From NCBI GenBank assembly GCA_947369085.1, contig CANBJR010000003.1, positions 44,416-108,415 on the forward strand: 64,000 nucleotides of DNA. The letters are read 5' to 3'. Below are positions 22,185 to 61,940 of this stretch, piece by piece. The stretch comes from an uncultured Clostridia bacterium (lineage in GTDB: Bacteria > Bacillota > Clostridia > Oscillospirales > Acutalibacteraceae). The notes beneath the pieces are model-generated. The model was given only the letters and a program-made list of their open reading frames with translations. It was not told where the DNA came from and searched no databases. The translations under genes and the position numbers were made by a program. Position 1 is the first letter of the stretch, and each line of letters opens with the position of its first letter.

Positions 22185-22538
22185 ATGTTTGAAATACTAA
22201 GTTTTCTAAGTCAATACATTTGCTTTTTCATTCTTCATGTCTGCTCAGGAGGTTCGTTTCCAAAGCCGCTCTCTGAAAAGCAGGAAAAAATCTACCTTGA
22301 ACGCTGTGCAAACGGCGACAAGGAAGCACGAAACAAGCTTGTTGAACACAATTTGCGGCTTGTTGCACATATTATAAAAAAATACTACGGAACACAGAGC
22401 GAACAGGACGATCTTGTTTCAATAGGGACAATCGGACTTATCAAGGCTGTTGACACATATGATATGAAAAAAAACATACGTCTTAGCTCCTATGCAAGCA
22501 GATGCATTGAAAAAACAATCCCCTCGCAACGGCTCTAA
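22185..22538 (+). pseudogene. sigK: sigK 5' half, interrupted by a skin-like element
   Basis: N-terminal half of the late mother-cell sigma factor SigK. The first 109 codons are native: a hydrophobic pro-sequence (FEILSFLSQYICFFILHV), then sigma region 1.2/2 with EHNLRLVAHIIKKYY and DLVSIGTIGLIKAVDTYD, ending SSYASRCIE. After Glu109 the reading leaves the sigma sequence (KTIPSQRL) and stops at 22536. The missing half is at 35629-35997. It is not a dead gene: removal of the 13.1-kb insert would restore it. The start has a GGTGGTG ribosome site 6 bases upstream. The hydrophobic N terminus suggests a pro-protein cleaved by a SpoIVFB-type protease. Confidence 0.93.
22506..22523 (+). other. Left attachment site of the skin-like element (attL)
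   Basis: Codon alignment of the two sigK junctions gives ATT-GAA-AAA-ACA-ATC-CCC here and ATT-GCG-AAT-GAA-ATC-CTT at 35623-35640. The shared AA at 22512-22513 and 35629-35630 is the likely 2-base crossover core of a serine recombinase, flanked by shared ATTG and ATCC. Crossing there yields the normal SigK sequence CIENEILM. Confidence 0.75.
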
Positions 22539-22657
22539 ATTATGTAAAACAGGAAAATTCAGCTCCTAATCAGTCAAATTGGAATGTTTTTAGAAAAATT
22601 TCAGACAGGTTATTTATTTTATATAAAAGCACAAAAAATAAAGTTAAATTTTCACCC

Positions 22658-23113
22658 TTGTACATACACACATTTAATTTTGCTCATCCTCTGAAGTTAA
22701 CCGAAGCAGAAAAATTTCTTCAAAAATACAAAACATTAGAAGAAATACCGACAACTGCTGAAAAGCTAAAATATTTACGCATTAAAAAGTCACTGCTTCA
22801 GCGTGAAGTTGCTGAATTTACAGGGATAAATGAAAGTACATATATTGGTTATGAAAATCCCGACAGGGATTATTATCCAATAGATAAAATGAGAAAAATC
22901 GCAGAATTTTATAATATTGATATTAAAAATCTTTTGGATTCTTATAATCTATTTCTATATAATGGACAAGGCAGACAAATAAAAGAATTGAGGACAAGTC
23001 TTGGTTTTACACAATATGAATTCGGTAAACTTTTAGGAGTAAAGCCATATATGGTTAAGAATTGGGAAAGTGAGAAAGTAAGAATTTCTAAAAGTTCGTG
23101 GATAAAATTATAA
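22658..23113 (+). CDS. Double XRE-type HTH protein (start unclear)
   Basis: Two helix-turn-helix domains in one chain: one near EKLKYLRIKKSLLQREVAEFTGINESTYIGYEN and one near IKELRTSLGFTQYEFGKLLGVKPYMVKNWE. The only start I can offer is TTG at 22658, with no ribosome site. The frame is open upstream, without a Met codon, to 22511, right beside the crossover point, and stops at a TGA at 22508. In the excised circle this frame would be continuous with the recombinase reading frame. It may therefore be a C-terminal extension expressed only after excision, or a regulator whose start was lost. A DNA-binding role is likely. Confidence 0.6.
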   Translation: MYIHTFNFAHPLKLTEAEKFLQKYKTLEEIPTTAEKLKYLRIKKSLLQREVAEFTGINESTYIGYENPDRDYYPIDKMRKIAEFYNIDIKNLLDSYNLFLYNGQGRQIKELRTSLGFTQYEFGKLLGVKPYMVKNWESEKVRISKSSWIKL

Positions 23114-23163
23114 TCCATAAATGTCTCGAATAATTTACTATAAGATTTTTTTGACTTTTGCAC

Positions 23164-23192
23164 TTGACATATTTTCTAAAAAAGCCTATACT
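23164..23192 (+). promoter_or_regulatory. Consensus promoter of the ImmA/IrrE operon
   Basis: TTGACA (23164-23169), 17-base spacer, TATACT (23187-23192). It lies 21 bases before an AGGAGG ribosome site at 23213-23218. Confidence 0.85.
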
Positions 23193-23226
23193 ATTAAATA
23201 AGAAAAATTGTTAGGAGGCGTCCATT

Positions 23227-23982
23227 ATTAGTACTTTATTTGATATTCCTGAAAAATTACAAAAAGATATTGTAAACTGTATAAATGCAGCCGTTGGTGA
23301 TGAAATTAAGGAAGATATTGCATCTAGCAAACTCATCTTTCATAACAATACTAAATTTCGTATTTGGGATATATTATATTCTAAAATATATGAAGAACTT
23401 CCTTTTCTGAATTGTAGCACAGGCATGGCTAAAAGAGGTCCATGGAATATGGCGGTTGCTTTTCACAATGAAACTAATATATTATTTACTTTTATGAGAG
23501 AAGGGCGATATAAAGAATTACACCGCTCGATTGCCAGACGCAAGAGACATCATTATTTAGATGCATTAGCTCAAACTTTTAATAGCGATTTATCTGCTCC
23601 TACCAAACAATTATCAATTTTTGAAAGAAGCGACTTTATTGACCAAGACAAAATGCCTGAGACAATTGAAAAGATTTTAACAAGCCTAGAAAAAGAGTCA
23701 TCAATCGTAAAAAATCATGTTTTAGTACTCTTTGATAGTTATAATTTCTCCTTAAGTTCAGTAAGAGCTGTGATTGTCGATAGTGATCTTAATATAGTTG
23801 AAGAGAAAAGTTGGAATCAACACATTATAGTTAATGAAAGCTCTGTTGTTGATAAAATTGATAAATTAGATTTGCCTGCAAATAATCCAAGTAAGGGATT
23901 AAAATTAACTGCCAAAGCAAATGCCAGAAAAAGAACAACGGAATTGCGCAAGGGGGATACAGAAAAAAATAATATAGGTTAA
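23227..23982 (+). CDS. Unrecognised protein upstream of HTH-ImmA/IrrE, probable ATT start
   Basis: The frame is open from 23215 to 23982. A perfect AGGAGG at 23213-23218 has no ATG, GTG or TTG at the right distance; ATT codons lie 5 (23224) and 8 (23227) bases away. An ATT start at 23227 would give 251 residues beginning ISTLFDIPEKLQKDIV; the first ATG (23425) has no ribosome site and would drop 66 well-formed residues. I do not know its function. Similar proteins, possibly the DUF5986 family, sit before HTH-ImmA/IrrE genes in mobile elements. The tail is Lys/Arg-rich. Confidence 0.65.
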   Translation: MSTLFDIPEKLQKDIVNCINAAVGDEIKEDIASSKLIFHNNTKFRIWDILYSKIYEELPFLNCSTGMAKRGPWNMAVAFHNETNILFTFMREGRYKELHRSIARRKRHHYLDALAQTFNSDLSAPTKQLSIFERSDFIDQDKMPETIEKILTSLEKESSIVKNHVLVLFDSYNFSLSSVRAVIVDSDLNIVEEKSWNQHIIVNESSVVDKIDKLDLPANNPSKGLKLTAKANARKRTTELRKGDTEKNNIG

Positions 23983-24011
23983 TTTACATTTCGGAAGGAA
24001 ATAGGACTAAT

Positions 24012-25160
24012 ATGACAAATAATTTACAATTTAACAGCGAAAGATTAAAAAAAGCTCGAATGTATCGAAGTATGACTGTTGCCGAACTTGCAGATAAAAT
24101 TGGTTGTCAAAGACAAACAATTTCAATGTATGAAAATAAGAAAATTCACAAACCTGATGACTCAACAATTAGAAAATTATCATCAGCATTGCATTTTCCT
24201 GAAAAATATTTTTATGAACAAAATGCTAATATAAATATTGGCTCGACATATTTTCGCTCTCTTTTAACTACAAATAAAAAATATCGTAGTGAGCAAGTTC
24301 AAAAAATAGAGTTTGTTTCACAAATATATGATTTTCTCAATGATTATGTTGAATTCCCATGTTTGAACTTGCCACAAATTGAACCTGGTTCCACACCTGA
24401 AAATGCTGCAAATGTTTTACGTAATTATTGGGGATTAGGCGATAAACCTATTCAAAATATAGTATATGAAGTTGAGCAAAATGGTATTATTGTTACTTCA
24501 TTCGAAACATCAACAAACGATATAGATGCCTTTAGTCAATTTATTAATAATCATGATGAAAATCTTTTTATTATAGGATATTCGAATAATAAAACTTCTG
24601 CGGCAAGAATTCATTTTGATATTGCCCATGAGCTAGGACACATTTGTTTACATGATTGGAGCGAAGACTTAGAATTATTAACAAAAGAAGAATTTAAAGA
24701 ACGTGAACAAGAAGCTCATAACTTTGCATCGGCTTTATTATTACCCGAAACATCCTTCAAGAAAGATGTTATTCATAATCCAACTAGTATTCCTTATTAC
24801 ACTCAGCTTAAAAAGAAATGGAAAGTATCCATATCAGCAATGATACGACGTTCCTTTAACTTAGGGATTATTACCTATGATGAATATCAAATGTTATACA
24901 GAGTACTTCAAAGACGTGGTATGCGAAAAGTAGAGCCATTAGATGATTCTTTAATAACTGCTTCTCCCTCTTTGTTAAAGACTTCTGTACAATTGTTATT
25001 AGAAGAAAAGGTTTTTACTCCCGAAGAATTTATGAATGAGCTTTCTTTTTCATATAATTTAAGCCTATATCCAGAAGAGGTTGAGTTTTTGCTTGATTTG
25101 CCAAATGGAACATTAAAAACTTCTAAAATTATACCTATTCATAATTTACACCTAAAATAA
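24012..25160 (+). CDS. HTH and ImmA/IrrE metallopeptidase fusion
   Basis: 382 residues. An XRE helix-turn-helix (about 8-62, MTVAELADKIGCQRQTISMYEN) is followed by an ImmA/IrrE zinc peptidase with HELGH at 206-210 and a downstream Glu (EREQEAHNFASALLLP). ImmA of ICEBs1 cleaves the element repressor, and related proteases act in phage induction, so this is the best candidate for controlling the element's own genes. It shares an operon with the gene before it (29-base gap, AAGGA ribosome site). Confidence 0.9.
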   Translation: MTNNLQFNSERLKKARMYRSMTVAELADKIGCQRQTISMYENKKIHKPDDSTIRKLSSALHFPEKYFYEQNANINIGSTYFRSLLTTNKKYRSEQVQKIEFVSQIYDFLNDYVEFPCLNLPQIEPGSTPENAANVLRNYWGLGDKPIQNIVYEVEQNGIIVTSFETSTNDIDAFSQFINNHDENLFIIGYSNNKTSAARIHFDIAHELGHICLHDWSEDLELLTKEEFKEREQEAHNFASALLLPETSFKKDVIHNPTSIPYYTQLKKKWKVSISAMIRRSFNLGIITYDEYQMLYRVLQRRGMRKVEPLDDSLITASPSLLKTSVQLLLEEKVFTPEEFMNELSFSYNLSLYPEEVEFLLDLPNGTLKTSKIIPIHNLHLK

Positions 25161-25201
25161 GATAGATTATCTTCATTTTATTGAACTTAGTACAACATTT
25201 A

Positions 25202-25375
25202 CTAACTATTTCTCAAATCTTTCTGAACATCATTAAGCAACTCCAATTTTTGATTTTTAGGGCAGGTTAGCTTTTTTATGTATGTACTTACAGCTTCTGC
25301 GTGAACTTTTGCAACTCTGCTTTTCAGTTCATTGATGTTTTCTTCACCCTTAGGGTAATGTACTACAACATTCAA
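25202..25375 (-). CDS. Small hypothetical mobile-element protein
   Basis: 57 residues beginning (M)NVVVHYPKGEENINELK. I chose the TTG at 25375 because GGGAGGG lies 9 bases upstream; the in-frame TTG at 25396 would translate the ribosome site itself. It is hydrophilic, mostly helical, and carries the pattern HAEAVSTYIKKLTCPKNQKLELL. I do not recognise a function. It is downstream of, and may be cotranscribed with, the Rep-like gene. Confidence 0.5.
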   Translation of the reverse strand: MNVVVHYPKGEENINELKSRVAKVHAEAVSTYIKKLTCPKNQKLELLNDVQKDLRNS

Positions 25376-25428
25376 ATTAACCTGCCCTCCCTTCAATATA
25401 AAATATGGTTTACTATTTGTCCGTTATG

Positions 25429-25641
25429 TTAGAAATTGCAATTATTATCTTGTAATTTTTCATCAACGGACATTTCATTTATCACGGTACATAATAATTT
25501 TTTTACATTATTAAACTCGTTCCAACGGTCAGCAGTCATATATCCTGTCTGTTCCAAAAATCCCTGTGCGTTATTTAATGATTTAATTAACTTTTTCATC
25601 TCAACTTTCATATAGCGTCTTGTAATAACTTTGTTTTTCAT
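25429..25641 (-). CDS. Small hypothetical protein after the Rep-like gene
   Basis: 70 residues from the ATG at 25641 (MKNKVITRRYMKVEMKKLI), with an alternative in-frame start at 25656. It is basic at the N terminus and acidic at the C terminus. It begins a few bases after the stop of the Rep-like gene, so it is probably in the same operon. No domain recognised; a copy-control or accessory role is only a guess. Confidence 0.5.
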   Translation of the reverse strand: MKNKVITRRYMKVEMKKLIKSLNNAQGFLEQTGYMTADRWNEFNNVKKLLCTVINEMSVDEKLQDNNCNF

Positions 25642-25646
25642 AATAA

Positions 25647-26543
25647 TCAATCCCATCTTTTTAAATTAAATTGTTCATAGGTGATGTTGTTCAATTCGAG
25701 CTCATTGCCATTTTCATCTTCACACCTAACATTGTTCGTATATGAATAGAACGGTTCACGATTTTTAACAAGATTCTTAACCTCACTATGAGTAAGATAT
25801 ATTGCAACGGGTCTTTTAATTCCTTTTGAACAGGTGTACAACTTAAAATTCGGTGGATAAAACTTTAATCTGCCACCTTTGACAATAGATTTTTTATTGT
25901 CAGAAGTCTGATTATTTTCAAATATATCAACATCAGAAAATCTCGCTGAAAAATATGCTCCGAAATTATCTGAAAATGGTATATTACTTATCCATACCAT
26001 ACCCATACCCAAAATTTTATTGAGTTTGCTTTGTTCTATAAATATCGGTCTGTATGAATGGTATTTTATTAGCACGTGAATATGCCATGTACCATTTTGT
26101 TGTGGTTCAATTATTCGGATATACTCAAAATCGGGATATTTGTATGAAAACCTTGCCCAAAAGTCCTTAAAATCCTTATTAGCCTGTCTATAATCAGTCA
26201 TTTCACTTCCATAAGTCAAAACAATATGCTTCTCTGTAAAGTCGCCTACAAAATTGTTATTGATAATACGCCTGAGTGTGATAAATGTTTTTTGATTAAT
26301 ATATCTATCTGCTTTTGAATTTTTATCTGACTTATAATGATGAACCTCACCTGTACTTATATCAACATACATTTCCTTACTTAATTTCCTATATTTTGAT
26401 AAGTTATAATTAGTCTTATCTGTCGTAATCGCTTCTACAACATTATTTGTGATATACACTTTTGAAACTGCGTCATCAGGTATTTTTAGAGGCTTGACTT
26501 TTTTTATTTTGATTTTTCTGTTTGTGTTTTCAAAACTTTCCAT
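25647..26543 (-). CDS. HUH-type rolling-circle replication initiator-like protein
   Basis: 298 residues from the ATG at 26543, which has AAAGGAG 8 bases upstream. The central GTWHIHVLIK (HIH at 154-156) is the metal-binding HUH motif of Rep and relaxase nucleases; a preceding KHIVLTYG strand fits motif 1 and Tyr197 in NFGAYFSARF is a plausible catalytic tyrosine. This suggests nicking at an origin, for example replication of the excised circle. It could instead be a degenerate HUH protein with another role. Confidence 0.72.
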   Translation of the reverse strand: MESFENTNRKIKIKKVKPLKIPDDAVSKVYITNNVVEAITTDKTNYNLSKYRKLSKEMYVDISTGEVHHYKSDKNSKADRYINQKTFITLRRIINNNFVGDFTEKHIVLTYGSEMTDYRQANKDFKDFWARFSYKYPDFEYIRIIEPQQNGTWHIHVLIKYHSYRPIFIEQSKLNKILGMGMVWISNIPFSDNFGAYFSARFSDVDIFENNQTSDNKKSIVKGGRLKFYPPNFKLYTCSKGIKRPVAIYLTHSEVKNLVKNREPFYSYTNNVRCEDENGNELELNNITYEQFNLKRWD

Positions 26544-26561
26544 TTTTAAAACTCCTTTCAA

Positions 26562-26855
26562 TGTTCTACTATTAATAACGGAACAGAGGAGTTAAAACAG
26601 CTTAATTTTTTTTAATTTTATCAAATTTCTTATATTTTTCAGAAGTTAGAGCGTTAAAATATATAAATACAGGAACTTTCTTAAAGCCTGAATTTCTAAA
26701 GCTATTATAATCCGTTAGTAATATCATATTTCATATAAATGACCTCTGAAAACCTTGCAAATAAAAAAGCTGACAAAACATCACGCAAGACATTTTGACA
26801 GCTATAGAAAAAGCTCCTCTACTTCGAGGAGCTAAACTATTAAAATTATATTAAT
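26562..26855 (-). terminator. Intergenic region with two minus-strand hairpin terminators
   Basis: No gene is seen. AGCTCCTC/GAGGAGCT (26812-26833) followed by TTTTTC on the minus strand terminates the zinc-ribbon gene to its right. A second hairpin, AGCTGACAAAA with TTTTGACAGCT (26768-26803, one mismatch), followed by TTTTTTAT, gives a backup. The remaining AT-rich part presumably holds the promoter of the Rep-like gene. Confidence 0.7.
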
Positions 26856-27878
26856 TTAATGAGTATTATTTGCTGTTATATTTAATTCTGTTACAAAAAG
26901 ATTTTCATCAAATTCAAAACTTAAAGTTCCTCCGTCTATATTATAAGCTACAGAACCAGAGGATAAAAAATTATATATCGGTTCTCCAAGCTTTGCATAA
27001 ACATCATCATATGTACTGTTTCCGTTAATATTTCCATAACACAGACCTGTTTTATTAGTTGAAGATAAATATGTAACGTTCAAAGATACTATTTTATTCG
27101 TTTCTATAAGAACTGTAACACTGAAGCCGTCAAACGTATATACATACCACTTATCAGAAGCAGTTATCACATCATCAGTTTGCTCTCCAAAATGATTTTT
27201 AACACTGTCAAAATCCTGTCCAAGATAATTGATACTTTCAAAATCAATAATTGAATCTTCTGCTTTTGATAAATAAAACTTACCGCCAATATCCCATAAC
27301 GCATTGTCTCCTTTTGTAATCACCGTTGTTTCAAGATAAATTTCATTATCATTAAACTTAATTATACCATTACCGCTGTTTAGCCAGCTATCATTATCAA
27401 AGCTAAATGTACCTACTCCATCAATAACACGGCAGGTAACATTATCTAACCGAGCAATCCAACTATAAGCAGGGTTCGATTTTCTTGTAAAGGTAAAACG
27501 AACTACATCATATTTAACTGAAACAATTTCAAGCATACTACCGCCGACATCTGCAAAGTCATCCTTAGTTTTGCCTTTGTCGTACCATAACCCTATATAT
27601 TTGCTGTAATCTACTTTTTGATTTGTATTTGAAGAAGAAATGGAAGATGTCTGCGAATTATTATTTTTTGATATATTAGGCATTAAAAATAATATTAAGA
27701 TTATTCCTGCAATTACGAAAACAAATAATGCTATTACTGAAATCAAAAAAACTAGTTTCTTTTTTACCTTAATCTCTTCTCCTGTTTTGACATCAATCAG
27801 CTTTGTCATACAGTAAGGGCAGAAAGCTGATTCAACAGGCAATTCTTTGCCACAATTACGACAATACTTTGTATCCAT
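26856..27878 (-). CDS. Zinc-ribbon single-pass membrane protein
   Basis: 340 residues. An N-terminal zinc ribbon (CRNCGKELP, then FCPYC, residues 6-23) precedes a basic stretch and one membrane helix at about 43-66. A Ser/Asn/Thr-rich linker and a large extracytoplasmic domain follow; the last part (YLGQDFDSVKNHFGEQ and STYDDVYAKLGEP) repeats a SmpA/BamE-like pattern seen in other Firmicutes surface proteins. Function unknown. It is one of two zinc-ribbon membrane proteins in a row in the skin-like element. Confidence 0.75.
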   Translation of the reverse strand: MDTKYCRNCGKELPVESAFCPYCMTKLIDVKTGEEIKVKKKLVFLISVIALFVFVIAGIILILFLMPNISKNNNSQTSSISSSNTNQKVDYSKYIGLWYDKGKTKDDFADVGGSMLEIVSVKYDVVRFTFTRKSNPAYSWIARLDNVTCRVIDGVGTFSFDNDSWLNSGNGIIKFNDNEIYLETTVITKGDNALWDIGGKFYLSKAEDSIIDFESINYLGQDFDSVKNHFGEQTDDVITASDKWYVYTFDGFSVTVLIETNKIVSLNVTYLSSTNKTGLCYGNINGNSTYDDVYAKLGEPIYNFLSSGSVAYNIDGGTLSFEFDENLFVTELNITANNTH

Positions 27879-27981
27879 ATTTGTTCACTTCCCTAATGTA
27901 AATATTATACATAAAATGGAATAAAAATACAAGAAAAAAGATAGTCCTTGCATACACAAGAACTATCTTTCTGAAGTATAC

Positions 27982-29373
27982 TTATTTAATTTCAAAAGTA
28001 TCAAGCACGCTGTCCATCATATTCATAGCATCAATATATTTCTGATTGGCAGCTTCATCCTCAATTATTCCAAGTCCCGTAGGATATTCTATATAAAAAT
28101 TATATTTATCATTAGAGTCTAATAATTCTGCTGAAATAAAGTCGTCAACTCCTGTTGTTTTTACAATAGAGAAAAGAAGTCCGGAACTGCCCGTATCACC
28201 TTGTTCGTGATTATATTTTTCATAAAAAGTAACTGTGTCACCTATTTCTTCATATACATATTCATCAGGAACAACAATTGAATAATCGCCAAATGAAACT
28301 CTGACACTGTTCTTTAGGCGTTCTTCATAATCAGCAATAAGCTGTACATTAAATTTTTCAATTTTGCTTAACATATCCTCTGAAAAATCCTTGGGATTAA
28401 TCGTACCATTGTACCAGCTTTGAGAGTTAAAATACTCCTGTATATAGTCGGTATCAAACTTTCTGCCATGACGAGCGTAAATTTCATTTCGAGCAAGCTC
28501 AAGCTCGTCCTCGCTCAAATCATCAATGTCTTTGTTTGACAATTTCATTTTATCGCTGTCAGGAAGTATATATTCATCATCCTTTGATGATGTAGTGGGT
28601 GCCTTTGTTGGTGATTCGGTTGCTGCATATAAATTGTTAGTTGCCTTCTCTGTACTAGTTTCTGCTTTAGTTGAATTAAATTCTGTCAAATTTTCTTTAT
28701 CGTGCTCAGACATAGGCTGTAATTGAAGTTCATCCATATTCTCATCATATGAAAGAGTTACATTTTTATATTTCATAATGGTTATATTATCGCTATTGGA
28801 TTTTATATAATTAATTGATGCGTGCCAATTTTGTATATTTTCTGCGGTATATTCATCTCCTGATGCAATTACTCCGCAATATGTACCAATGCGCACAGCG
28901 CTTTCATTGTTTAACTTACTTACAAAAATAGAAGAAATATTATCAACTTTTTCATTTTGTGAACCTATAGTTTCAAAAATATTAATTAAATATCCGTTCC
29001 CTTTATATAATTTTGAATCTAAAAATTCATTTTCTTCCCAGTCATCAGGATTAAATTTTACTGTTACACCCTCTGCTTGTGTCATAGCTTCACTTAATTT
29101 TTCTGAAAATTCGATATATGTGAAATCAAATAAATTTTCTGTTGTTTCAGTTGACTGACTGCCATTTAATGCAGAAATCACAAGAACAATCCCTGTAGTA
29201 ATCATTACAACTGCAAGCACTGCCGCAACGCAAATTATTATCAGTTTTTTAGTGTTTATTCTTTTTTTGCTTGGTATAATTTCCCGACTATTTATCATAA
29301 TCATACAGTACGGACAAAATTCTGCTTCAATAGGCAATTCTTTTCCACACTTCGGGCAATATTTTTTAGACAT
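27982..29373 (-). CDS. Zinc-ribbon membrane protein with YARHG domain
   Basis: 463 residues. An N-terminal zinc ribbon (CPKCGKELP, FCPYC) is nearly identical in plan to the neighbouring protein, followed by a membrane helix at about 44-69. The outer part holds a Thr/Ser linker and a YARHG domain (ELARNEIYARHGRKFDTDYIQEYF, about 280-330), an extracellular module of unknown role often linked to cell-wall processes, and ends in a DUF-like region. Probably a surface protein. A terminator-like hairpin precedes its neighbour. Confidence 0.78.
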   Translation of the reverse strand: MSKKYCPKCGKELPIEAEFCPYCMIMINSREIIPSKKRINTKKLIIICVAAVLAVVMITTGIVLVISALNGSQSTETTENLFDFTYIEFSEKLSEAMTQAEGVTVKFNPDDWEENEFLDSKLYKGNGYLINIFETIGSQNEKVDNISSIFVSKLNNESAVRIGTYCGVIASGDEYTAENIQNWHASINYIKSNSDNITIMKYKNVTLSYDENMDELQLQPMSEHDKENLTEFNSTKAETSTEKATNNLYAATESPTKAPTTSSKDDEYILPDSDKMKLSNKDIDDLSEDELELARNEIYARHGRKFDTDYIQEYFNSQSWYNGTINPKDFSEDMLSKIEKFNVQLIADYEERLKNSVRVSFGDYSIVVPDEYVYEEIGDTVTFYEKYNHEQGDTGSSGLLFSIVKTTGVDDFISAELLDSNDKYNFYIEYPTGLGIIEDEAANQKYIDAMNMMDSVLDTFEIK

Positions 29374-29478
29374 TTTAAATCACTCCCATATTAATTATAC
29401 ATAATATATAAGAAAAGTACAAGTAAAAAGATAATCCGAGCGAATACCCGAATTATCTCTTAAACTTTTTAGCTAAAA

Positions 29479-30267
29479 TTAGATTTTCTTGTTTCCATTT
29501 AATTTTGTTATATAGTTTATTAGTATCTCACGATTTTCTTTTCTATTTCCCATATGAAAGGCAAATTTAAACTGTTCACCATTGTTTAATAAGATTTTAA
29601 AAGGTGATTCCATAGGACCACTGCATGGAACGATACTTACTATTTTGTTAAGAGGAATACTTAAATAGTCAGTTCCTGCAAGAGATAGCAAACCAATGCC
29701 TACAGCGTTTAACAATCCTTTTTTCTCAAAGATGAGCCTTTGATTAGTTAAGATAATATTACCGCTTGTTGCTATGCCATTTCTATATGCACCTAATTGA
29801 ATAAAAATAATTGACTCATTCGGAAACAAGGGAGTTTTTAAACGAGTGTTAACCTTGCTGGGTATTTTGCTTGCTTGAGAATCATTTTGTGGATAATTAT
29901 CAGTAGTGCTATTTTCATCGCTGTTTGCAGAATAAATTGGGGAGGTAAAACTATCAATAGAATTATTAAACGTTCCATTTACCGAATTTAACTGCAATGA
30001 TGTATTTTTCTTTTTAAAGTGCAACACTAAAAAAATGATGCCGCCAAGTATCAATACAATACCTATTATTAAAAAAATAACAGTAGTAATCTGATATGTA
30101 AACTCTTCCTGTTGTGCTGCTCTTATCCCACGATATGCACGTGTAACAGAATATACGGCAGCAGACGGTCTATTCTTATAGTGAACAAGAGAAAAAACTA
30201 GCGAAATAACACCAAGAGCAAAAGATGATATTGATATGCACAGAAAAGTTTTTGTATAATTTTTCAT
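29479..30267 (-). CDS. Two-helix membrane protein with GRAM/PH-like domain
   Basis: 262 residues. Membrane helices lie near residues 7-28 and 62-86, separated by an external basic loop; a Ser/Asn-rich linker follows. The C-terminal part (about 150-255, starting LFPNESIIFIQLGAYRNG, with GNIILTNQRLIF) resembles GRAM or bacterial PH domains, which bind lipids or proteins. It forms a likely membrane-associated group with its neighbours. Assignment is moderate. Confidence 0.65.
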   Translation of the reverse strand: MKNYTKTFLCISISSFALGVISLVFSLVHYKNRPSAAVYSVTRAYRGIRAAQQEEFTYQITTVIFLIIGIVLILGGIIFLVLHFKKKNTSLQLNSVNGTFNNSIDSFTSPIYSANSDENSTTDNYPQNDSQASKIPSKVNTRLKTPLFPNESIIFIQLGAYRNGIATSGNIILTNQRLIFEKKGLLNAVGIGLLSLAGTDYLSIPLNKIVSIVPCSGPMESPFKILLNNGEQFKFAFHMGNRKENREILINYITKLNGNKKI

Positions 30268-30282
30268 ATGTGTACTCCTTGT

Positions 30283-30717
30283 CTACTTTACCTCTTTAAA
30301 AAATAAGTCTATATATTCCATAGCATTGCTATCTGTCATTAAATCAGAATCATTTGCCTTTACAGTGAATACTGAAATTTTTTGGTTTTTCTGATTATAT
30401 GTATATGTTATATATGCTTCATGCGGATTACTCTCATCAATAGCTTTATAGACACATCTGACAACTACATCATCATCACTTAGATATCCATTTTCTTTAA
30501 AAGCCTTTACATCATCTTCAGGTGCTATCTCCCATTCTTCAGTCACATCAACACCTAATTTCTCATATGCTTTTTTAAATGTTTCTGCAATAGGCATATT
30601 GGGATATTCTGATAAACTTCCATTTTTGACTGATTCAATAGGGTCTTGTGAACCACATCCGGTTATTAATAGAGTTAAAACTATTATCATTGATAAAATT
30701 AAAGATACTTTTTTCAT
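30283..30717 (-). CDS. Lipoprotein of unknown function
   Basis: About 144 residues from the ATG at 30717: signal MKKVSLILSMIIVLTLL, lipobox ITGC, then a mature domain with many acidic residues. The in-frame upstream start at 30744 adds only hydrophilic residues and contains the likely ribosome site. It is 15 bases upstream of the GRAM-like gene, so the two are probably cotranscribed. The mature domain is not recognised. Confidence 0.75.
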   Translation of the reverse strand: MKKVSLILSMIIVLTLLITGCGSQDPIESVKNGSLSEYPNMPIAETFKKAYEKLGVDVTEEWEIAPEDDVKAFKENGYLSDDDVVVRCVYKAIDESNPHEAYITYTYNQKNQKISVFTVKANDSDLMTDSNAMEYIDLFFKEVK

Positions 30718-30801
30718 TATTAATGATTCCTTTCTGTTTTTCAATTTTTTTAATAATTAAGTAATAAAATATTTATTGTCTGTAAATTCACGGTATTGTA
30801 T

Positions 30802-31203
30802 TCAAATTAATGCAATTATCCTTTTAGCAATTTCTTCATTATCTTCCTTGAAAATACTGGATTTTCTTTCTTTGTATTTATCGTTTACAGGTAATTCTTC
30901 ATTCAGGTCTGTATTGAGCCATTTAATTTTAACTTCATTATCACAGTTTTCATAACCTTGATGCGAATTTGAGTTTTTAAAAGTGTCAGTAACTACACCA
31001 ATTGCTTTTATTTTCATAGGATTAGTTGTTATATAAAATGACTTGATGTAAATAATATCTCCTATTTTAATTTTCTTCATTAACTCATAATACTTTGGCT
31101 GTTCCTGTTCAGACCAGCCTATACAAACAAAATTTTCCTTGAAAAAATTATCAAACTGATTATTTGTGCCATTAAAAAATGACCCCATTCCCCAAATTGC
31201 CAT
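30802..31203 (-). CDS. EVE/PUA-like small protein (tentative)
   Basis: 133 residues beginning MAIWGMGSFFNGTNNQFDNF. The pattern GDIIYIKSF followed by KIKAIGVVTD looks like the beta-barrel of EVE/PUA-type modules, which bind modified nucleotides and in other proteins are fused to restriction or McrB-like ATPases. Here it is a stand-alone domain inside the skin-like element. Fold assignment is by eye and weak; the gene itself is credible. Confidence 0.5.
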   Translation of the reverse strand: MAIWGMGSFFNGTNNQFDNFFKENFVCIGWSEQEQPKYYELMKKIKIGDIIYIKSFYITTNPMKIKAIGVVTDTFKNSNSHQGYENCDNEVKIKWLNTDLNEELPVNDKYKERKSSIFKEDNEEIAKRIIALI

Positions 31204-31406
31204 AAATATAGCACTCCTTTGATTAAAATATTTTTAAATTACAGGCAACAACTGCATTACCTGACAAAATCAATAAATCTTCTACTGATTTCAAGATAAT
31301 TTTATCACAAATACTGCTATTAGTCAATATTAAATGCTTTTGGTTAATTTATTTTTTGTTCTAAAAAGTATAAAATAAATATAAAAGCATTTTGAGGTTT
31401 TTGCTT

Positions 31407-31742
31407 ATGGATAGAAATATTGACTATGCAGCACTTGGTAAGCGAATAAAGAATAAAAGAGTTGAAAACAAGCTTACACAGGAACAGCTCGGTGAAATGT
31501 GTGAGCTTTCTTCGGCTCATATAGGTCACATTGAAAGAGGTACACGTATTTTATCTGTTGATGTACTTTTCAAAATATCACAGGCACTTAATGTGAGTAT
31601 TGATTATCTCCTTTTTGATTCAATTGAAAATAATAATATTCTTACTAACATTATTCCTACTTTGAAAACTTGTGATAAATCAAAAGTTAATAACTTTCTT
31701 AATACCGTACGTGTGCTTGCAGATAATATTGACAAACTTTAA
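31407..31742 (+). CDS. XRE-family transcriptional regulator
   Basis: 111 residues from the ATG at 31407 (TGAGG about 9 bases upstream; the frame could start at 31392). An N-terminal HTH_3 domain (ENKLTQEQLGEMCELSSAHIGHIERG, about 10-65) is followed by a short C-terminal oligomerisation tail. It is typical of phage- or plasmid-type repressors and is transcribed away from the EVE-like gene, so it may control the region between them. Confidence 0.85.
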   Translation: MDRNIDYAALGKRIKNKRVENKLTQEQLGEMCELSSAHIGHIERGTRILSVDVLFKISQALNVSIDYLLFDSIENNNILTNIIPTLKTCDKSKVNNFLNTVRVLADNIDKL

Positions 31743-31776
31743 CTGTTGAATTAAAGATAAATATGTAAAATAATAA

Positions 31777-31834
31777 CCGTCTTTGATTAAATTATAATCA
31801 AAGGCGGCTTTTTTGTCCTGTGCTGTCAGCACAG
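31777..31834 (+). terminator. Tandem terminators after the XRE gene
   Basis: CCGTCTTTGATTA/TAATCAAAGGCGG (31777-31807, one G-T mismatch) followed by CTTTTTTG, then a second stem CTGTGCT/AGCACAG followed by TTTTTTAATTTTT. The second hairpin also has a T-run on the opposite strand side and may stop the YoeB transcript. Confidence 0.75.
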
Positions 31835-31862
31835 TTTTTTAATTTTTACAGTATTAAATCAA

Positions 31863-32123
31863 TTATTCATCATAATGACCTTTGCAGGAAGCAATAACAA
31901 TTGCACCATCCTTTTCACGATAAACAATTCTGTTTGTATCGTCAATCCTCCTGCTCCACCAACCGCTTAAATTTCCTTTTAACGGCTCAGGTTTTCCAAT
32001 ACCCTCAAAGCAATTGCGCTGAATATCCTTTATAATTGTATTCAGGCGCTTTAACGTCTTTTTATCCTGCGTTTGCCAATAACAATATTCTTCCCACGCA
32101 CATTCATCCCAAAGTAATTTCAT
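31863..32123 (-). CDS. YoeB-family toxin (ribosome-dependent mRNA interferase)
   Basis: 86 residues of the Txe/YoeB family: WDECAWEEYCYWQ at the start, PEPLKGNLSGWWSRRI in the middle, and the C-terminal catalytic pattern CKGHYDE with the terminal His-Tyr. Such toxins cut mRNA at the ribosomal A site. It follows the RelB-type antitoxin gene by 4 bases. Confidence 0.92.
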   Translation of the reverse strand: MKLLWDECAWEEYCYWQTQDKKTLKRLNTIIKDIQRNCFEGIGKPEPLKGNLSGWWSRRIDDTNRIVYREKDGAIVIASCKGHYDE

Positions 32124-32127
32124 AACA

Positions 32128-32388
32128 TTATTCCTCTATCAATTCATGTTCGGTCAAAATTGCTCTGCCCGATTCAATATCAGCAATTACAGAGTTCAAA
32201 TGTTTCATATTACTTTCGGAATAAAACGGGTCAGCCGAAATTTCAAAAGGAATTCTTTTTTCACGGCTTACTTTCGTTGCAAATATTGTAAATGCGGTGG
32301 TCATACTCATACCCATATCCTTACAAACCTGCTCCATACTTTTTTTCAGGTCTGAATCCATACGAAAATTTACCATAGATTGTGCCAT
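32128..32388 (-). CDS. RelB/DinJ-family antitoxin
   Basis: 86 residues from the ATG at 32388 (MAQSMVNFRMD). The N-terminal ribbon-helix-helix (VNFRMDSDLKKSMEQVCKDMGMSMTTAF) binds DNA and the C-terminal half would wrap the toxin. It is the first gene of the pair and is expected to autorepress through the operator just upstream. A RelB/DinJ antitoxin with a YoeB-type toxin is a mixed pairing seen elsewhere. Confidence 0.9.
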   Translation of the reverse strand: MAQSMVNFRMDSDLKKSMEQVCKDMGMSMTTAFTIFATKVSREKRIPFEISADPFYSESNMKHLNSVIADIESGRAILTEHELIEE

Positions 32389-32418
32389 ACAAAACACTCC
32401 TTATTTCTTGATAGCTTA

Positions 32419-32461
32419 ATTATATTACATTGTAAAGCAAATGTCAATATTATGCTTTACA
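32419..32461 (-). promoter_or_regulatory. Promoter and palindromic operator of the toxin-antitoxin pair
   Basis: On the minus strand TTGACA (32442-32447), 17-base spacer and TATAAT (32419-32424). A perfect 9-bp inverted repeat TGTAAAGCA (32431-32439) and TGCTTTACA (32453-32461) straddles the -35 element, the expected site for antitoxin autorepression. Confidence 0.85.
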
Positions 32462-32485
32462 ACATTATATGTACACAATTAAGAA

Positions 32486-33190
32486 TTATAATGACTTTTT
32501 TAATTCAAGTGCATTCTGATAACGATTATCGGGAATAGTCTGCGTGCATTTTACTATAACCTTTTTAAGCTTGCCGCTATACAGCTTCCTTTCGGGCGGC
32601 TCTCCTGTGAGCATTACATTCATAAGCTTGCCGAGAGCATAAATATCCGTTCTTGCGTCCGTTTGGTTGAGTCCATACTGTTCGGGAGCTGCATATCCAT
32701 GAGTTCCAAGCATTTTTGTATCTTCGCTTTGATAGGGTTTGTAAAGCCTTGCAGCGTCAAAATCAATGAGTTTTACTACTCCTTTTTGGTTAATCATTAC
32801 ATTTTCAGGCTTAATATCTTTATGTATAATTCTATTTGAATGCAGAAAATCAAGTGCATCACACAATTCAGATATTATTCTTTTTACACCTACAGGCGAA
32901 TATAAATTATCCTTAAGATAGTCATAAATTGTCTGTCCGTCAATATATTCCTCAAGAGCAATAACGCCATCTTTGGTCTTAACAACATCATAGACATTTG
33001 AAATGTTTTGGTGAAAAAGGCTTCGCAAAACAAAATAAACCTCTCCTGACCCCTCTACAGACCTCCTAACGAGGCTTTTACCCAGTTCTTTGTGTCGGTA
33101 AACTATAATTGGAGATTTATTAGGTTTATTCAATGCCTTAACAAACTGATATTGTTCTTTTAATACATTGTCAATCCAGTTATCATTCAT
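32486..33190 (-). CDS. Small soluble protein kinase (Hanks type)
   Basis: 234 residues, no membrane segment. The catalytic loop HKDIKPEN (Asp125) and the APE-like segment GYAAPEQYG are intact, but the metal motif is DFD (143-145) rather than DFG and I see no glycine-rich loop in the N-lobe, so activity may be altered. Divergent from an HTH gene 84 bases away; such kinase-HTH pairs recur in mobile regions of Clostridia. Targets unknown. Confidence 0.82.
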   Translation of the reverse strand: MNDNWIDNVLKEQYQFVKALNKPNKSPIIVYRHKELGKSLVRRSVEGSGEVYFVLRSLFHQNISNVYDVVKTKDGVIALEEYIDGQTIYDYLKDNLYSPVGVKRIISELCDALDFLHSNRIIHKDIKPENVMINQKGVVKLIDFDAARLYKPYQSEDTKMLGTHGYAAPEQYGLNQTDARTDIYALGKLMNVMLTGEPPERKLYSGKLKKVIVKCTQTIPDNRYQNALELKKSL

Positions 33191-33274
33191 AAATTCTGCT
33201 CCGATTTCTTATTGATTATTTTATTATATCATGTTAAACTGTTTATGAAAATACAATTAAAGGAAATGAGTAAA

Positions 33275-33703
33275 ATGAAATTTAAATCAACCTCGGACTT
33301 ACTGAAAGAACTTTCAGCCACAGAAAACTTTGATGAATTTGCAAAAGAAAATAAAGATTATATGATTAGTAAGTCTTTGTCAGAGCATTTATGTGAACTG
33401 CTTATAGAAAAGAAGCTTAAAAAGTCAGAAGTAATTAAAAAATCAGAGATTAGCAGTGACTATGCTTATCAAATATTTTCGGGGACAAAATCTTCTCCAA
33501 CAAGAGATAAGCTTATTTCACTTGCAATCGGTATAGGATTATCAGTTGGTGAAACAAGCGGACTTTTGAAGCTTGCAGGACTAATGCCGCTGTACGCAAA
33601 AAATCTGCGTGACAGCATTATTATTTTTGGAATTAACAACAGTAAAAGCGTTTGCAAGATAAATGAAATGCTGTTTGAAAAAGGTGAAACAACTTTAAAT
33701 TAA
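33275..33703 (+). CDS. HTH regulator divergent from the kinase gene
   Basis: 142 residues from the ATG at 33275, with AAAGGA 10 bases upstream. A helix-turn-helix in the middle (KKSEVIKKSEISSDYAYQIFSGTKSSPTR, about 60-100) is followed by a compact C-terminal domain. It is likely a partner or target of the divergent kinase, but this is context inference. Confidence 0.75.
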   Translation: MKFKSTSDLLKELSATENFDEFAKENKDYMISKSLSEHLCELLIEKKLKKSEVIKKSEISSDYAYQIFSGTKSSPTRDKLISLAIGIGLSVGETSGLLKLAGLMPLYAKNLRDSIIIFGINNSKSVCKINEMLFEKGETTLN

Positions 33704-33890
33704 GCTATTAAACTTAAATATAGATATATAAATATCAAAAATTAAATTCTTTTTGCAATTTACAGTATTTTGATTTATAATAAGGTTAAAGTTGAGCGAA
33801 TTCGCTTTTGCCTTATTATTTTTTTACATCATTAGAGCCGTTGCGATATATAACTCAATATTATACTACATAACAAAGAAGGATTATAAA

Positions 33891-35633
33891 ATGAGATTTG
33901 AAGATGATAAAAGAAAATTTGCAATTTATTCAAGAAAATCTAAATTTACAGGCAAGGGCGAAAGTATTGCCAATCAAATTGAATTGTGTAAGCGTTATAT
34001 ACAAACTCATAATGAAAATGTGAGAGACGAAGATATTATTCTTTTTGAAGACGAAGGTTTTTCGGGAGGTAATGTTAAAAGACCTCAATTTCAGTTAATG
34101 ATGTCTGAATTAAGAAATAAAAAAATTAAAGCTGTTGTTTGTTATCGACTTGACAGAATCAGCCGTAAAATAAGCGACTTTTCAAGTATGATTGACGAAT
34201 TTGCAGAATATGATGTTGCTTTTGTATCTATAAAAGAGCAGTTTGATACAAGTAGTTCTATGGGAAAGGCTATGATGTATATTTCCTCAGTCTTTGCACA
34301 GCTTGAGCGTGAAACAATAGCCGAAAGAATAAGAGATAATATGCACGAGCTTGCAAGAACAGGTCGGTGGCTTGGAGGAGTTCCTCCAACAGGATATACC
34401 AGTATTCCGATTGTTGGTAGCGTAACTGTTGATGGTAAAGCACGAAAGGCATATAAACTTGACCTAATAAAAAATGAAGCTGCTTTAGTAAAGCAACTTT
34501 TTGAAGTTTTTCTTGAAACTAACTCATTAACTAAAACAGAAACATATTTTTTGCAGAATCATATTACTACTAAAAACGGAAAGAATTTTTCACGATTTAC
34601 AATAAAAGGAATCCTACAAAATCCTGTTTATATGGCTGCTGATAAAGACTCTTTTGAATATTTTAATAATTTAAATGTTGATGTTTACGCAAATGAAGAT
34701 GACTTCAACGGCAGATACGGAATAATAGCGTATAATAAAACCTTGCAAAAAACTGGTCAGGCAAACAAAGTGCGTGATATGAATGAATGGATTATAGCCA
34801 TTGGCAAGCACAAACCTATCATAAGCGGTGCCGACTGGGTTAAAACACAAGCTTTATTAGAACAGAATAAATCAAAATCATACAGAAAACCCAAAAGCAA
34901 TGTTGCTCTTTTATCGGGATTATTATACTGCGGAAATTGCGGAAATTATATGCGACCAAAACAAAGTCAAAGACTTAATGCAAGCGGTGAAAAGATATAC
35001 AGTTATCTTTGTGAAACCAAAGAAAAAAGCCGAATGCATAATTGTCAGATGAAAAATCCAAATGGTAACACTCTTGACAGACTGGTATGTGAAGAAATAA
35101 AAAAGTTATCTGAGGATAGCTCTGAATTTATCGGGCAATTAAAACAGACAGAAAAAGAATTTTTATCAAACAACAGCGAATATAACAGTCAGCTTGACAT
35201 TTATAAAAACGAATATGAGGAAAACCAAAAACAAATTGAAGCACTTGTAATGGCTCTGGCAAAATCAGCCGAGATGCCTGCCTATGATTATATCAACAAA
35301 GAAATCGCAAAGCTTGATTGTAAAAACAAGGAGTTAATCAATAAAATTGATGATTTAGAAAAAATCACGGGAAACAATTCTATGTCAGATACTGAATTTA
35401 ATCTACTTGAAGAACTACTTGCCTCTTTTAGCAAAACATTTGATGTTATGAGTATAGAAGAAAAAAGAGCGGCACTCAGAACATTTATTGAGCGTGTTGT
35501 ATGGGACGGCAAACAGGTTCATATTTATCTTTTTGGTTCAGAGGAAAAAGAGAATTTGAACAATATTATTGAAGACATAAATTCAAACTCTTTTGACGGC
35601 TGTGAAGAGCCGCAAGGAGGGGATTGCGAATGA
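33891..35633 (+). CDS. Large serine recombinase of the skin-like element (SpoIVCA-like)
   Basis: 580 residues from the ATG at 33891 (AAGAAGGA 7 bases upstream; the frame runs to 33792 but lacks a site there). The resolvase domain has the catalytic Ser in FAIYSRKS, YRLDRISR and QLERETIAERI; then a recombinase domain, a zinc ribbon (CGNCGNYM, then C residues in LCETKEKSRMHNC) and a coiled coil before the tail. It would excise the element from sigK. Its TGA stop (35631-35633) lies just past the crossover core, in sigK sequence. Confidence 0.95.
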   Translation: MRFEDDKRKFAIYSRKSKFTGKGESIANQIELCKRYIQTHNENVRDEDIILFEDEGFSGGNVKRPQFQLMMSELRNKKIKAVVCYRLDRISRKISDFSSMIDEFAEYDVAFVSIKEQFDTSSSMGKAMMYISSVFAQLERETIAERIRDNMHELARTGRWLGGVPPTGYTSIPIVGSVTVDGKARKAYKLDLIKNEAALVKQLFEVFLETNSLTKTETYFLQNHITTKNGKNFSRFTIKGILQNPVYMAADKDSFEYFNNLNVDVYANEDDFNGRYGIIAYNKTLQKTGQANKVRDMNEWIIAIGKHKPIISGADWVKTQALLEQNKSKSYRKPKSNVALLSGLLYCGNCGNYMRPKQSQRLNASGEKIYSYLCETKEKSRMHNCQMKNPNGNTLDRLVCEEIKKLSEDSSEFIGQLKQTEKEFLSNNSEYNSQLDIYKNEYEENQKQIEALVMALAKSAEMPAYDYINKEIAKLDCKNKELINKIDDLEKITGNNSMSDTEFNLLEELLASFSKTFDVMSIEEKRAALRTFIERVVWDGKQVHIYLFGSEEKENLNNIIEDINSNSFDGCEEPQGGDCE

Positions 35634-35640
35634 AATCCTT
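35623..35640 (+). other. Right attachment site of the skin-like element (attR)
   Basis: Sequence ATT-GCG-AAT-GAA-ATC-CTT in the sigK frame; it overlaps the last codons and stop of the recombinase gene. The likely core is AA at 35629-35630, matching 22512-22513. Downstream sequence (NEILMH) is native sigK. Confidence 0.75.
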
Positions 35641-35997
35641 ATGCACTTTCGCAATGTAAAAAAGAGCGCTCAGGACATTTCGCTGAACGAAACAATAGAC
35701 ACAGACAAAGACGGTAATCCGCTTACTTTGCTTGATATTATGGCGGTTGACGACAATATAATCGACACGCTGGACTTAAAATTTAACAGCAGAAAGCTTG
35801 GACAATACATTAACGAAGAGCTTGATGAGCGTGAGAAAAAAATTATAATTCTTCGTTACGGACTGGACGGAAACGAGCCTATGACGCAAAAAAATGTCGC
35901 AAAGCTCTTAAATATTTCAAGGTCTTATGTAAGCAGGATTGAAACACGTGCCCTAAAAATTTTGAAAAAACGCTTTGACAGCAGTTCAAATTTGTAA
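35629..35997 (+). pseudogene. sigK: sigK 3' half, activated only by excision
   Basis: C-terminal 122 codons of SigK, beginning NEILMHFRNVKKSAQDISLNETI and containing region 4 with REKKIIILRYGLDG and the recognition helix KNVAKLLNISRSYVSRIE. It lacks its own start; an in-frame TTG at 35593 is inside the recombinase gene. Joined to Glu109 of the 5' half it gives a 231-residue sigma factor. Features that separate it from SigE are the NEILMHFR..KK pattern and the DGNPLTLLDIM region. Confidence 0.93.
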
Positions 35998-43700: not shown

Positions 43701-44352
43701 CTTTAAGGAGTGAAATTACAGCATTCTGAACATTAGTGTTGCCTGTGTTAAGGTCAGGACAAGCCGAAACGTGACCCTGAACTACACCCTGAATTGAGCT
43801 ATCGCTTGCATTGCCTGTGTAGGAATGGAAGTATGAACTCTTGTTTGTGTAAAAATCGGGCTGATAGGTTTTTACCTGCTCGCTTAATGAATTAGGATCA
43901 GTTTCAACCTCGTTACCCATATGGTTTGATACAATATCGCAGATAATTTTGATACCGTATTTGTCAGCCTCTGAGCAAAGTGACTTAAGGTCATCCTTTG
44001 AACCAAGCCATGACTTCTGAGCAATTGACATACTAACCGGCTGATAGAGCTTCCACCACTGACCAGCAACGTCGTTAGAAGTACCGTAGTCCTTTGCCTG
44101 CTGAACAGGAGAGGTCTGAACGGTTGTGTAACCTGCTGCTGCAATAGCAGGAAGGTTTTCTTTGATTGAATTGTACGACCAGTTAAACGCATGAAGTATT
44201 ACGCCGTCTTTAACTTCACTTTGTATTGCCGAATCATTGGATACGACAGCATCGGTTTTTTCAGCAGCGCTGACCGATGAAGTGAAAGCAAAGGATGAGG
44301 TAACCATCATAGCTGCAATAACAAGACTTACAACTTTTCTGAGAGCTTTCAT
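40702..44352 (-). CDS. Secreted modular alpha-amylase with internal dockerin
   Basis: 1216 residues from the ATG at 44352 (the frame runs to 44400). Signal peptide 1-30 (VSAA cleavage); GH13 catalytic domain about 48-400 with Asp230, Glu272 and Asp335; an amylase C-domain; a module like the starch-binding family CBM26 (about 575-690, VYVFFDSSKISSWKAPF); a Pro/Thr linker; a type I dockerin with two Ca-binding repeats (GDVNGDGTVKIQDATLIQ and DVNADGVINVLDATMIQ, 755-811); a second Pro/Thr linker; and three further beta modules, the last ending FKNTESTWDMQTDD. It should attach by cohesin to a starch-degrading complex. Having the dockerin mid-chain is unusual. Confidence 0.93.
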   Translation of the reverse strand: MKALRKVVSLVIAAMMVTSSFAFTSSVSAAEKTDAVVSNDSAIQSEVKDGVILHAFNWSYNSIKENLPAIAAAGYTTVQTSPVQQAKDYGTSNDVAGQWWKLYQPVSMSIAQKSWLGSKDDLKSLCSEADKYGIKIICDIVSNHMGNEVETDPNSLSEQVKTYQPDFYTNKSSYFHSYTGNASDSSIQGVVQGHVSACPDLNTGNTNVQNAVISLLKECIDCGVDGFRFDAAKHIETPNDGSYASNYWPNITSAAKNYYNEKTGGNLYIYGEILNTCGSGRQYSSYTDYINVTDNRTGDAVLAAVSKGNASTAANASYKSGVSASNAVLWAESHDTYEGSSGSAGIANTAGVSDEDVIKAWAIVASRKDSTALYFARPGSALMGEAGTDTAYKSTAVSEVNKFHNIFVGQSEKLGSSDGVAYVARGTNGIVLANCKGTSKSVSISGTGIANGTYTDTITGNKFTVSGGTLTGSIGSTGVAVVYNGTTTPKNTCSVESGTFKGETMTVELGLENATSGTYCLDDSTPVTYTGKTTIRIGSDYNYNDTINLTLTATDGAKTTTATYKYTKKEAASSGVYVFFDSSKISSWKAPFNVYLYDEDTSSTETYSNASWPGQPMQIDPATGYYYIEVSDNSCLAKNNASQEITDSTYDLAHSRNTYVIVSDSNGNQHPADGARTKLKLNGESKILTGRSTSGWNSTTLVPSAGTPVDATDVTKGTVATTPVPTTKPVPTTVPPVPTTNPVPTSSSPVGTMIYGDVNGDGTVKIQDATLIQKHSVGLESIEDKYLVLADVNADGVINVLDATMIQKYIASDPNWGLTGQPYVTETEPDSTVATQPETTVTVPDTTATEATEPQPTETEPQPTATEPETTNPPLTKDYYLFGSINGANYGCEEDYENLGDYKFENGQVTVNFDTTSYVGVKTAGNKEWFMTDGWQGNVTEVTLYNTEELDTTADKLMIPAGESVLTLVENEDGTLTLSYELISEPVDPTDPQPTNPTDPQPADTFTFYFKTTLGWMTDDGVSLFVYDSNSGESYDLVKDLDAYPNVYTAEVPTTMTSCVVYRYLEPVFETPVGGDTGNVYNCWSAKVSTDKNCVTLSNDEQVSVGAYVPEERPAFTLSRVYFDNSKTKWSEVYIYGWAESKLGNKAVLMTQIEGTNIWYYDFATPLTPGSKCFLFKNTESTWDMQTDDMTVTDGKNCFLANAGNKAGGSWYLYTE

Positions 44353-61663: not shown

Positions 61664-61758
61664 TTTAATTCTCCTCTCCGTTTTATCATCTGAATGTTGT
61701 GGTCACACCGCCTCGGTGCAACCACAACATATCACAACTCGTTTCTAATATCCAGCTA

Positions 61759-61923: not shown

Positions 61924-61940
61924 AGTCCTCCTTTCTCCGA

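Follow-up and report, generated by a model that had tools for sequence, protein, structure and literature searches.

How can sigK, which is likely needed late in spore formation, be made whole when an element of 13,117 bp lies between its two halves? This question is raised by a 64,000-nt stretch of contig CANBJR010000003.1 (GCA_947369085.1) of a gut bacterium, called the window here, to whose coordinates all positions refer. An element with no recognised phage structural genes splits sigK at codons 109/110, and we consider it probable that its large serine recombinase excises it in the sporulating mother cell, by which sigK would be rejoined and a double helix-turn-helix (HTH) tail added to the recombinase. 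What the sequences themselves show is the split of sigK with its AA core, the arms of the attachment site attP that mirror each other, the in-frame tail, the recurrence of the arrangement and the natural fusion proteins.

The split sigK gene and its attachment sites

The main features of the locus are the following.

22185..22511, + strand: sigK 5′ half, codons 1-109 (sigK model scores and junction analysis)
22489..22536, + strand: attL, with the sigK arm, the central AA at 22512-22513 and the element arm (CIENEILM-restoring junction, best attP palindrome)
33891..35633, + strand: integrated form of the large serine recombinase, 580 aa counted from its ATG (PF00239, PF07508, PF13408)
35606..35653, + strand: attR, with the element arm, the central AA at 35629-35630 and the sigK arm (junction analysis)
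35629..35997, + strand: sigK 3′ half, 122 codons plus stop (sigK model scores and junction analysis)

The 5′ half (22185-22511, 109 codons) ends in RCIE and the 3′ half (35629-35994, 122 codons) starts with NEILMH. With TIGR02846 the 5′ half scored 147 bits, whereas the best SigE model gave it 110. The 3′ half scored 139 bits with NF004471 and 125.5 with TIGR02846, against 104 for SigE. Each piece being half a gene, neither reached the curated full-length cut-offs. An earlier annotation made from the DNA letters, here the original prediction, had proposed this split at matching coordinates, and it is confirmed by both halves scoring best with sigK models. The check for an intact second sigK found none in the genome; as the assembly (98 contigs) is 84.6% complete, this absence is less than certain. 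The sole full-length hit elsewhere, on contig C63, is SigE-like, with 336 bits for SigE, slightly below the model cut-off of 348.6, and 245 bits for SigK. Both halves are under purifying selection (nonsynonymous differences pN 0.21-0.27, synonymous differences pS 0.77-0.88) when compared with the intact sigK of two genomes of the same genus, in which the empty site is seen.

Joining the DNA at the AA of 22512-22513 and 35629-35630 restored SRCIENEILMH, and hence the CIENEILM that had been predicted. Among the 49 junctions that keep the sigma frame open, this AA/AA junction also gave the best mirrored attP, with 17 of 23 bases; the joined ends of the element form no better inverted repeat than this one, and the AA is exactly in its middle. 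The next-best junctions, in neighbouring registers, had 15 and 14 mirrored bases and did not restore CIENEILM. When random pairs were drawn from the window, 1 in 200,000 reached 17 mirrored bases. Reading frame and palindrome agree on one core dinucleotide, AA.

The predicted size of about 13.1 kb and the large serine recombinase at the right end were both borne out. The GC content of the element is 31%, against 39% in the flanks. In the integrated form of the recombinase the Resolvase, Recombinase and zinc-ribbon domains are whole, and its stop codon TGA (35631-35633) falls within sigK DNA, in the AATGAA of sigK. The locus therefore shows what marks a skin-type element: an interrupted sigK that is restored by exact joining, a large serine recombinase, and short-core attL and attR with inverted arms. 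The joined SigK starts with about 24 residues of hydrophobic character before FPKPLS (22185-22260), which we take to resemble a pro-sequence. The SigK of Clostridioides difficile has none (PMC5025042; this and the other papers cited were read in excerpts).

To follow the recurrence of the arrangement, 250 genomes from the same family were searched, and 30 of them, the window's own counted, gave a recombinase match with an E value of 1e-60 or lower. Among 20 fetched loci (L009-L028) the 14 best, window included, directly precede a sigK 3′ half; the other 6 do not, one of them (L026) being cut by the contig end. In 21 genomes the junctions could be read at 18 left and 20 right ends, and every one of them is placed at codon 109/110 and carries this AA. 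A scan of a genome collection gave 530 loci, and the best 80 of these, the named loci, come from Lacrimispora, Flavonifractor, Massilioclostridium, Merdimmobilis, Sporomusa and other hosts, which belong to the Clostridia and some Negativicutes. In 73 of these 80 the sigK 3′ half, split at codon 109/110, follows the recombinase within 400 bp. AA came first in all 73 right ends, and the recombinase stop was at the position of the sigK TGA in 54. For the remaining 7, no 3′ half was found at L116, the contigs of L129, L131, L149 and L154 break off no more than 129 bases from the recombinase match, and the elements at L137 and L172 seem inverted (L172 judged by eye). L137, L172 and L084 (G126) lie at sigK apparently in reverse, their recombinase pointing towards the 5′ half.

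The probes themselves begin or end at codon 109/110, and for this reason the identity to the window's SigK was also checked beyond that point. Over 12 codons on either side it dropped from 10.4 to 2.5 at 17 left ends, from 9.2 to 1.2 at 20 right ends and from 8.6 to 1.2 at the 73 named right ends. The symmetry of 37 joined attP sites was on average 15.3 of 25 (range 11-20), with a control mean of 6.2 and a 99.9th percentile of 14. The window's element is thus one of many such elements. In G030, a genome of another genus, the recombinase block was 95.8% identical at the DNA level up to the att core and the sigK flanks about 60%, so the element as a whole, or else its recombinase end, passes from host to host. 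Among phages, a search at E 1e-60 or better gave one recombinase relative (39%), and among plasmids six records, all below 60%. A 52% relative on the megaplasmid pRUMAL01 of Ruminococcus albus 7 (L260, 12001-13710) ends in an att-like arm, with no sigK half beside it.

A recombinase gene spanning attP

Once the element ends are joined, attP falls inside the recombinase gene and the circle form reads on in frame for 199 codons, so that the open frame continues through attP as in the myxophage Mx8.

22514..23113, + strand: tail frame, 199 codons plus stop, two HTH domains, continuing the recombinase frame after the ends have been joined

The structure model of the tail had a predicted local distance difference test score (pLDDT) of 90.5. 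Its HTH folds matched SinR, P22 C2, 434 Cro, Stl and ImmR; these matches chiefly cover the two HTHs and barely probe the N-terminal 60 or so residues. The two HTHs suggest that the tail binds DNA.

The read-through was two-peaked over 33 elements, with 193-234 codons in 18 and 0-65 codons in 15. Ten of the 15 tail-less elements form one Lachnospiraceae-type clade. For G116, G129, G097 and G038, four of the 18 long ones, the element ends are on different contigs and the joining was inferred. The count excludes G141, whose left contig stops when 25 codons have been read open, G092 with a truncated recombinase, G126 with its recombinase on the opposite strand, G013, G117 and G017, which have no left end, G157, which has no right end, G186, whose fetched piece contains no recombinase, and L135, which is the element of G191. 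On the recombinase tree of 31 rows four gains or losses of the tail were placed, three of them forced by well-supported branches; tails have probably been lost or regained.

The long tails are homologous (11 aligned), with Trp23 invariant in all 11. Purifying selection was detected in three of five pairs, where the ratio of nonsynonymous to synonymous substitutions (dN/dS) was 0.11, 0.19 and 0.34; the other two pairs were saturated. The first 45 codons of the window's tail contain no ATG, GTG or TTG, which holds for 6 of the 18 tails, and a start codon with a Shine-Dalgarno-like motif at strict spacing occurs within these codons in 1 of 18. With start sites this scarce, the tail is most likely not made as such in the integrated state. 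A −1 frameshift that would lead from the frame of the 5′ half of sigK to that of the tail was weighed and dropped, as inspection of the junctions by eye gave no shared slippery site.

Naturally fused proteins were sought with the joined 779-aa protein as query. Of 7,999 candidates scored, 6,672 passed E 1e-100 and 120 were listed. Among these listed relatives 24 have at least 740 aa, and 23 of them combine the recombinase with HTH domains; they are predicted proteins of public genomes and metagenomes. Their junction peptides (20 fetched) read GEDSE followed directly by CYTI, or alike, fitting attP. The att core was located in 21 of the 24 long proteins, including P0109 that has no HTH, which gave 210 pairs. 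In 10 pairs the tails were at least 95% identical and the recombinases less than 65%; in 4 pairs the recombinases were at least 93% identical and the tails about 65% or less. The extremes were a recombinase of 100% with a tail of 40%, and a tail of 100% with a recombinase of 59%. It follows that tails are swapped at the att core.

In IMG/VR the tail was not found with a single-sequence query, and three loci were found with the alignment A1 as query. On the IMG/VR contigs L178 (7947-8612) and L179, an att-like core and an open reading frame (ORF) that by eye looks like a terminase gene are followed by a tail-like HTH ORF that has an ATG of its own. On the fetched pieces neither a recombinase nor a sigK half was present.

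The small protein, the cargo and the neighbourhood

Between the two ends of the element a small gene and the cargo were recognised.

25202..25375, − strand: 57-aa protein, TTG start, predicted two helices, candidate recombination directionality factor (ORF family, structure prediction)
25400..25429, − strand: sigmaE-like −35/−10 that enclose a SpoIIID-like GGACAA (pattern defined post hoc from the sequences)
23425..25160, + strand: RmrT-like (DUF5986) and RmrA-like (HTH plus M78 peptidase) cargo pair, candidate defence system of PADLOC
25647..26561, − strand: rolling-circle-type replication protein (Rep; REP_ORF2-G2P; profile searches)
31863..32397, − strand: YoeB/RelB toxin-antitoxin pair (profile searches)
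32486..33190, − strand: serine/threonine kinase-like cargo (profile searches)

The family of the small protein occurs in 29 of 31 elements, tail-bearing and tail-less alike (weakest E 8e-5), and is the most widely shared ORF family when frames overlapping the recombinase are set aside. Its motif is MNVVVHYP...HAEAV...L.CP..QK, and no match was found in Pfam or PHROGs. The family comprises 116 proteins, the window's own counted; those to which a source gives a name are called 'hypothetical protein', with the exception of P0233, likely a chance hit. The smallest elements (L170 and L171, 2.65 kb) contain three genes: the recombinase, the one for the small protein, and an ORF of 168-183 aa (L170 element 145-696; L171 element 184-690), whose family is present in 13 of 31 elements. 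The idea that the small protein is the sole other conserved ORF of L170 and L171 was dropped for this reason.

The pattern ATA-NN-G[GT]ACA-N9-11-[CA]ATA precedes the small gene in 17 of 29 elements. In 200 rounds of shuffling it was found on average 0.01 times (maximum 1), and in random windows 0.12 times (maximum 2). It spans several separate recombinase lineages. We take this layout to resemble a sigmaE promoter with a SpoIIID-type site. SpoIIID and SigE are both present in the genome. The conserved 57-aa protein is a candidate directionality factor that may be read from a sigmaE/SpoIIID-like promoter.

No phage structural families were detected among 17 ORFs of the element scanned with Pfam or among 10 of these with PHROGs, in line with the original prediction, and the cargo is in this respect not that of a prophage-derived skin. 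The conclusion drawn there, that this is a different kind of element, is too strong, as non-phage intervening elements such as gin are known (PMC5595907). Outside the element, 40702-44400 encodes a large alpha-amylase with dockerin and CBM26 domains that fits an amylosome, and the term 'amylosome-type' used for the host is supported to that extent. A second mobile module is located at the right edge of the window (60053-63416, − strand), where a large serine recombinase (60053-61663) lies beside a MobA/VirD2-type relaxase (61941-63416).

Proposed excision, competing readings and known systems

The directionality of serine recombinases is normally attributed to a separate small factor. In the vegetative cell, the element would stay in place, and attL and attR should not be recombined by the short recombinase unaided. 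Expression of the 57-aa protein would be switched on in the mother cell by sigmaE and SpoIIID; like CD1234 of C. difficile, the protein would then enable the short recombinase to excise the element. By this sigK would be rejoined, and the recombinase gene in the circle would gain the double-HTH tail. We are less sure of the following step, in which the long recombinase would likely repress its own gene or block attP x attB by means of the tail, so that sigK stays repaired. The integration state would then be carried in the length of the recombinase. That one excision rewrites two genes in this way, repairing sigK and converting the short recombinase to a long form that locks the circle out, with the C-terminus as a record of the state and the core as a point of domain shuffling, is a proposal that we regard as quite possible and still short of probable.

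Several observations weigh against excision by the small protein and a role of the tail as outlined. The data are sequences, and no excision, circle or transcript has been observed. With 15 of 33 elements tail-less, the tail is not needed for excision as such. The linker codons 9-47 of the close pair G223/G038 had a dN/dS of 0.87, and in G125 a looser spacing puts a ribosome site before an ATG at tail codon 22. The small protein was not found in G045 and G092. The promoter pattern was fitted post hoc, many of its 17 carriers are close kin and 12 of the 29 lack it; a scan with a generic sigmaE consensus scored 11.4 of 15, barely higher than the shuffles (10.9). Several contigs with fused proteins are long (up to 402 kb), and these fusions may reflect tandem elements instead of circles. 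No fused ORF was found in 398 genomes of the family and 394 of the order, overlapping sets in which 2 candidates were scored per genome. The tail region alone had no match in a set of 5.8 billion proteins; this query is insensitive, since the full-length query recovered the fusions, and its result is not negative evidence.

The long recombinase might instead be the form in which the element arrives, with the tail needed in the circle for integration or for repressing cargo and replication genes, and with integration trimming it to a short form that serves for excision only. The tail would then be a matter of transfer and not of sporulation. We see this as a tentative possibility. Homologues of the window's Rep, the only ones sought, were present in 9 of 14 complete tail-bearing and in 0 of 15 tail-less elements, the rows being related, so that the circle may exist as a genuine stage in the life of the element. 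A recombinase 97% identical in another genus and the folding of the HTHs like the mobile-element repressors Stl, ImmR and P22 C2 fit this too, whereas no transfer gene was recognised in the window's element with Pfam and tail-less relatives likewise occur in several host families. That the tail is a separate regulator gene downstream of the sigK 5′ half, and the frame across attP a by-product of the palindromic att site, we judge unlikely. Twelve of the 18 tails do have an in-frame ATG, GTG or TTG in the first 45 codons, a ribosome-site-like motif is present at one of them and at the looser spacing in G125, and the tail-like ORF of L178/L179 has its own ATG; against this stand the 6 tails without such codons, the invariant Trp23 and the 23 fused ORFs among the 120 listed.

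The insertion could be dead, in a host with a broken sigK that no longer sporulates, and the incomplete assembly leaves some room for this. The purifying selection on both sigK halves, the presence of SpoIIID and SigE, and a recombinase, att arms and small protein that are open and conserved make it very improbable. To an assembly artefact, for which nothing more than the fragmented assembly speaks, we give practically no credence, because the same architecture recurs in isolates and independent assemblies, such as those of Massilioclostridium coli and Lacrimispora strains.

The attP within the recombinase gene, the conserved small protein and the existence of many such elements were absent from the original prediction; the first two are the weightier findings. 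The gene structure suggests a second layer of directionality, in which the product of the reaction alters the length of the enzyme itself. If true, this would explain how a removed sigK element could stay out, and it would provide a large number of natural recombinases whose form encodes the state and, with the 116 small proteins, a candidate family of directionality factors for many spore-forming gut bacteria. The timing of sporulation by DNA excision becomes testable in cultured commensals.

The element has the structure that defines skin elements and differs from them by the recombinase gene spanning attP. The skin element of C. difficile, skinCd, is reportedly 14.6 kb in size. It has the recombinase CD1231 and the directionality factor CD1234 of 72 aa under sigmaE and SpoIIID (PMC5025042). 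It resembles the window's element in the split sigK, the large serine recombinase adjoining the 3′ half, the small excision factor (predicted here) and the similar size; compared by description, it differs in that the excerpt mentions no tail from an attP in the recombinase gene. The B. subtilis skin also splits sigK and uses a serine recombinase, SpoIVCA, with a small directionality factor, Skr of 64 aa (a candidate here). Unlike the window's element it is a 48-kb prophage-like element (PMC13141910), its skr overlaps spoIVCA, and no tail is described in the excerpt of PMC6957869. The original prediction had placed the insertion at the same site as both skins. This was not upheld: the excerpts of PMC5025042 and PMC6957869 place the two in different regions of sigK, so the window's site cannot match both.

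The gin element in gerE of Bacillus cereus is likewise a non-phage intervening element with serine recombination, an additional factor (GirX) and a regulator/metalloprotease cargo pair; it differs in the target gene and in having three recombinases (PMC5595907). In searches of an open-licence PMC library, a layout with attP in the recombinase gene was not found described for the serine recombinases of sporulation genes. A likeness is found in Mx8, where attP lies inside int, so that upon integration the integrase acquires a different 3′ end and behaves differently; Mx8 is a phage, with no sporulation gene involved and no double-HTH tail described in the excerpt (PMC6070905). In the integration-dependent immunity of the mycobacteriophage BPs, attP lies inside the repressor gene and integration changes the protein length (PMC4557955). 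In BPs it is a regulatory gene with a DNA-binding product that contains attP, and the repressor is altered, not the recombinase. The archaeal SSV-type suicidal integrases have attP within their gene, and a chimeric exchange of gene parts has been proposed for them (PMC8371274), which resembles the exchange of tails. They are tyrosine recombinases whose gene is split by integration, whereas the window's element encodes a serine recombinase with its catalytic part whole. Taken together, the principle of an attP inside a gene is already known from Mx8 int, the BPs repressor and the archaeal suicidal integrases, and is joined here to a skin-type element in sigK.

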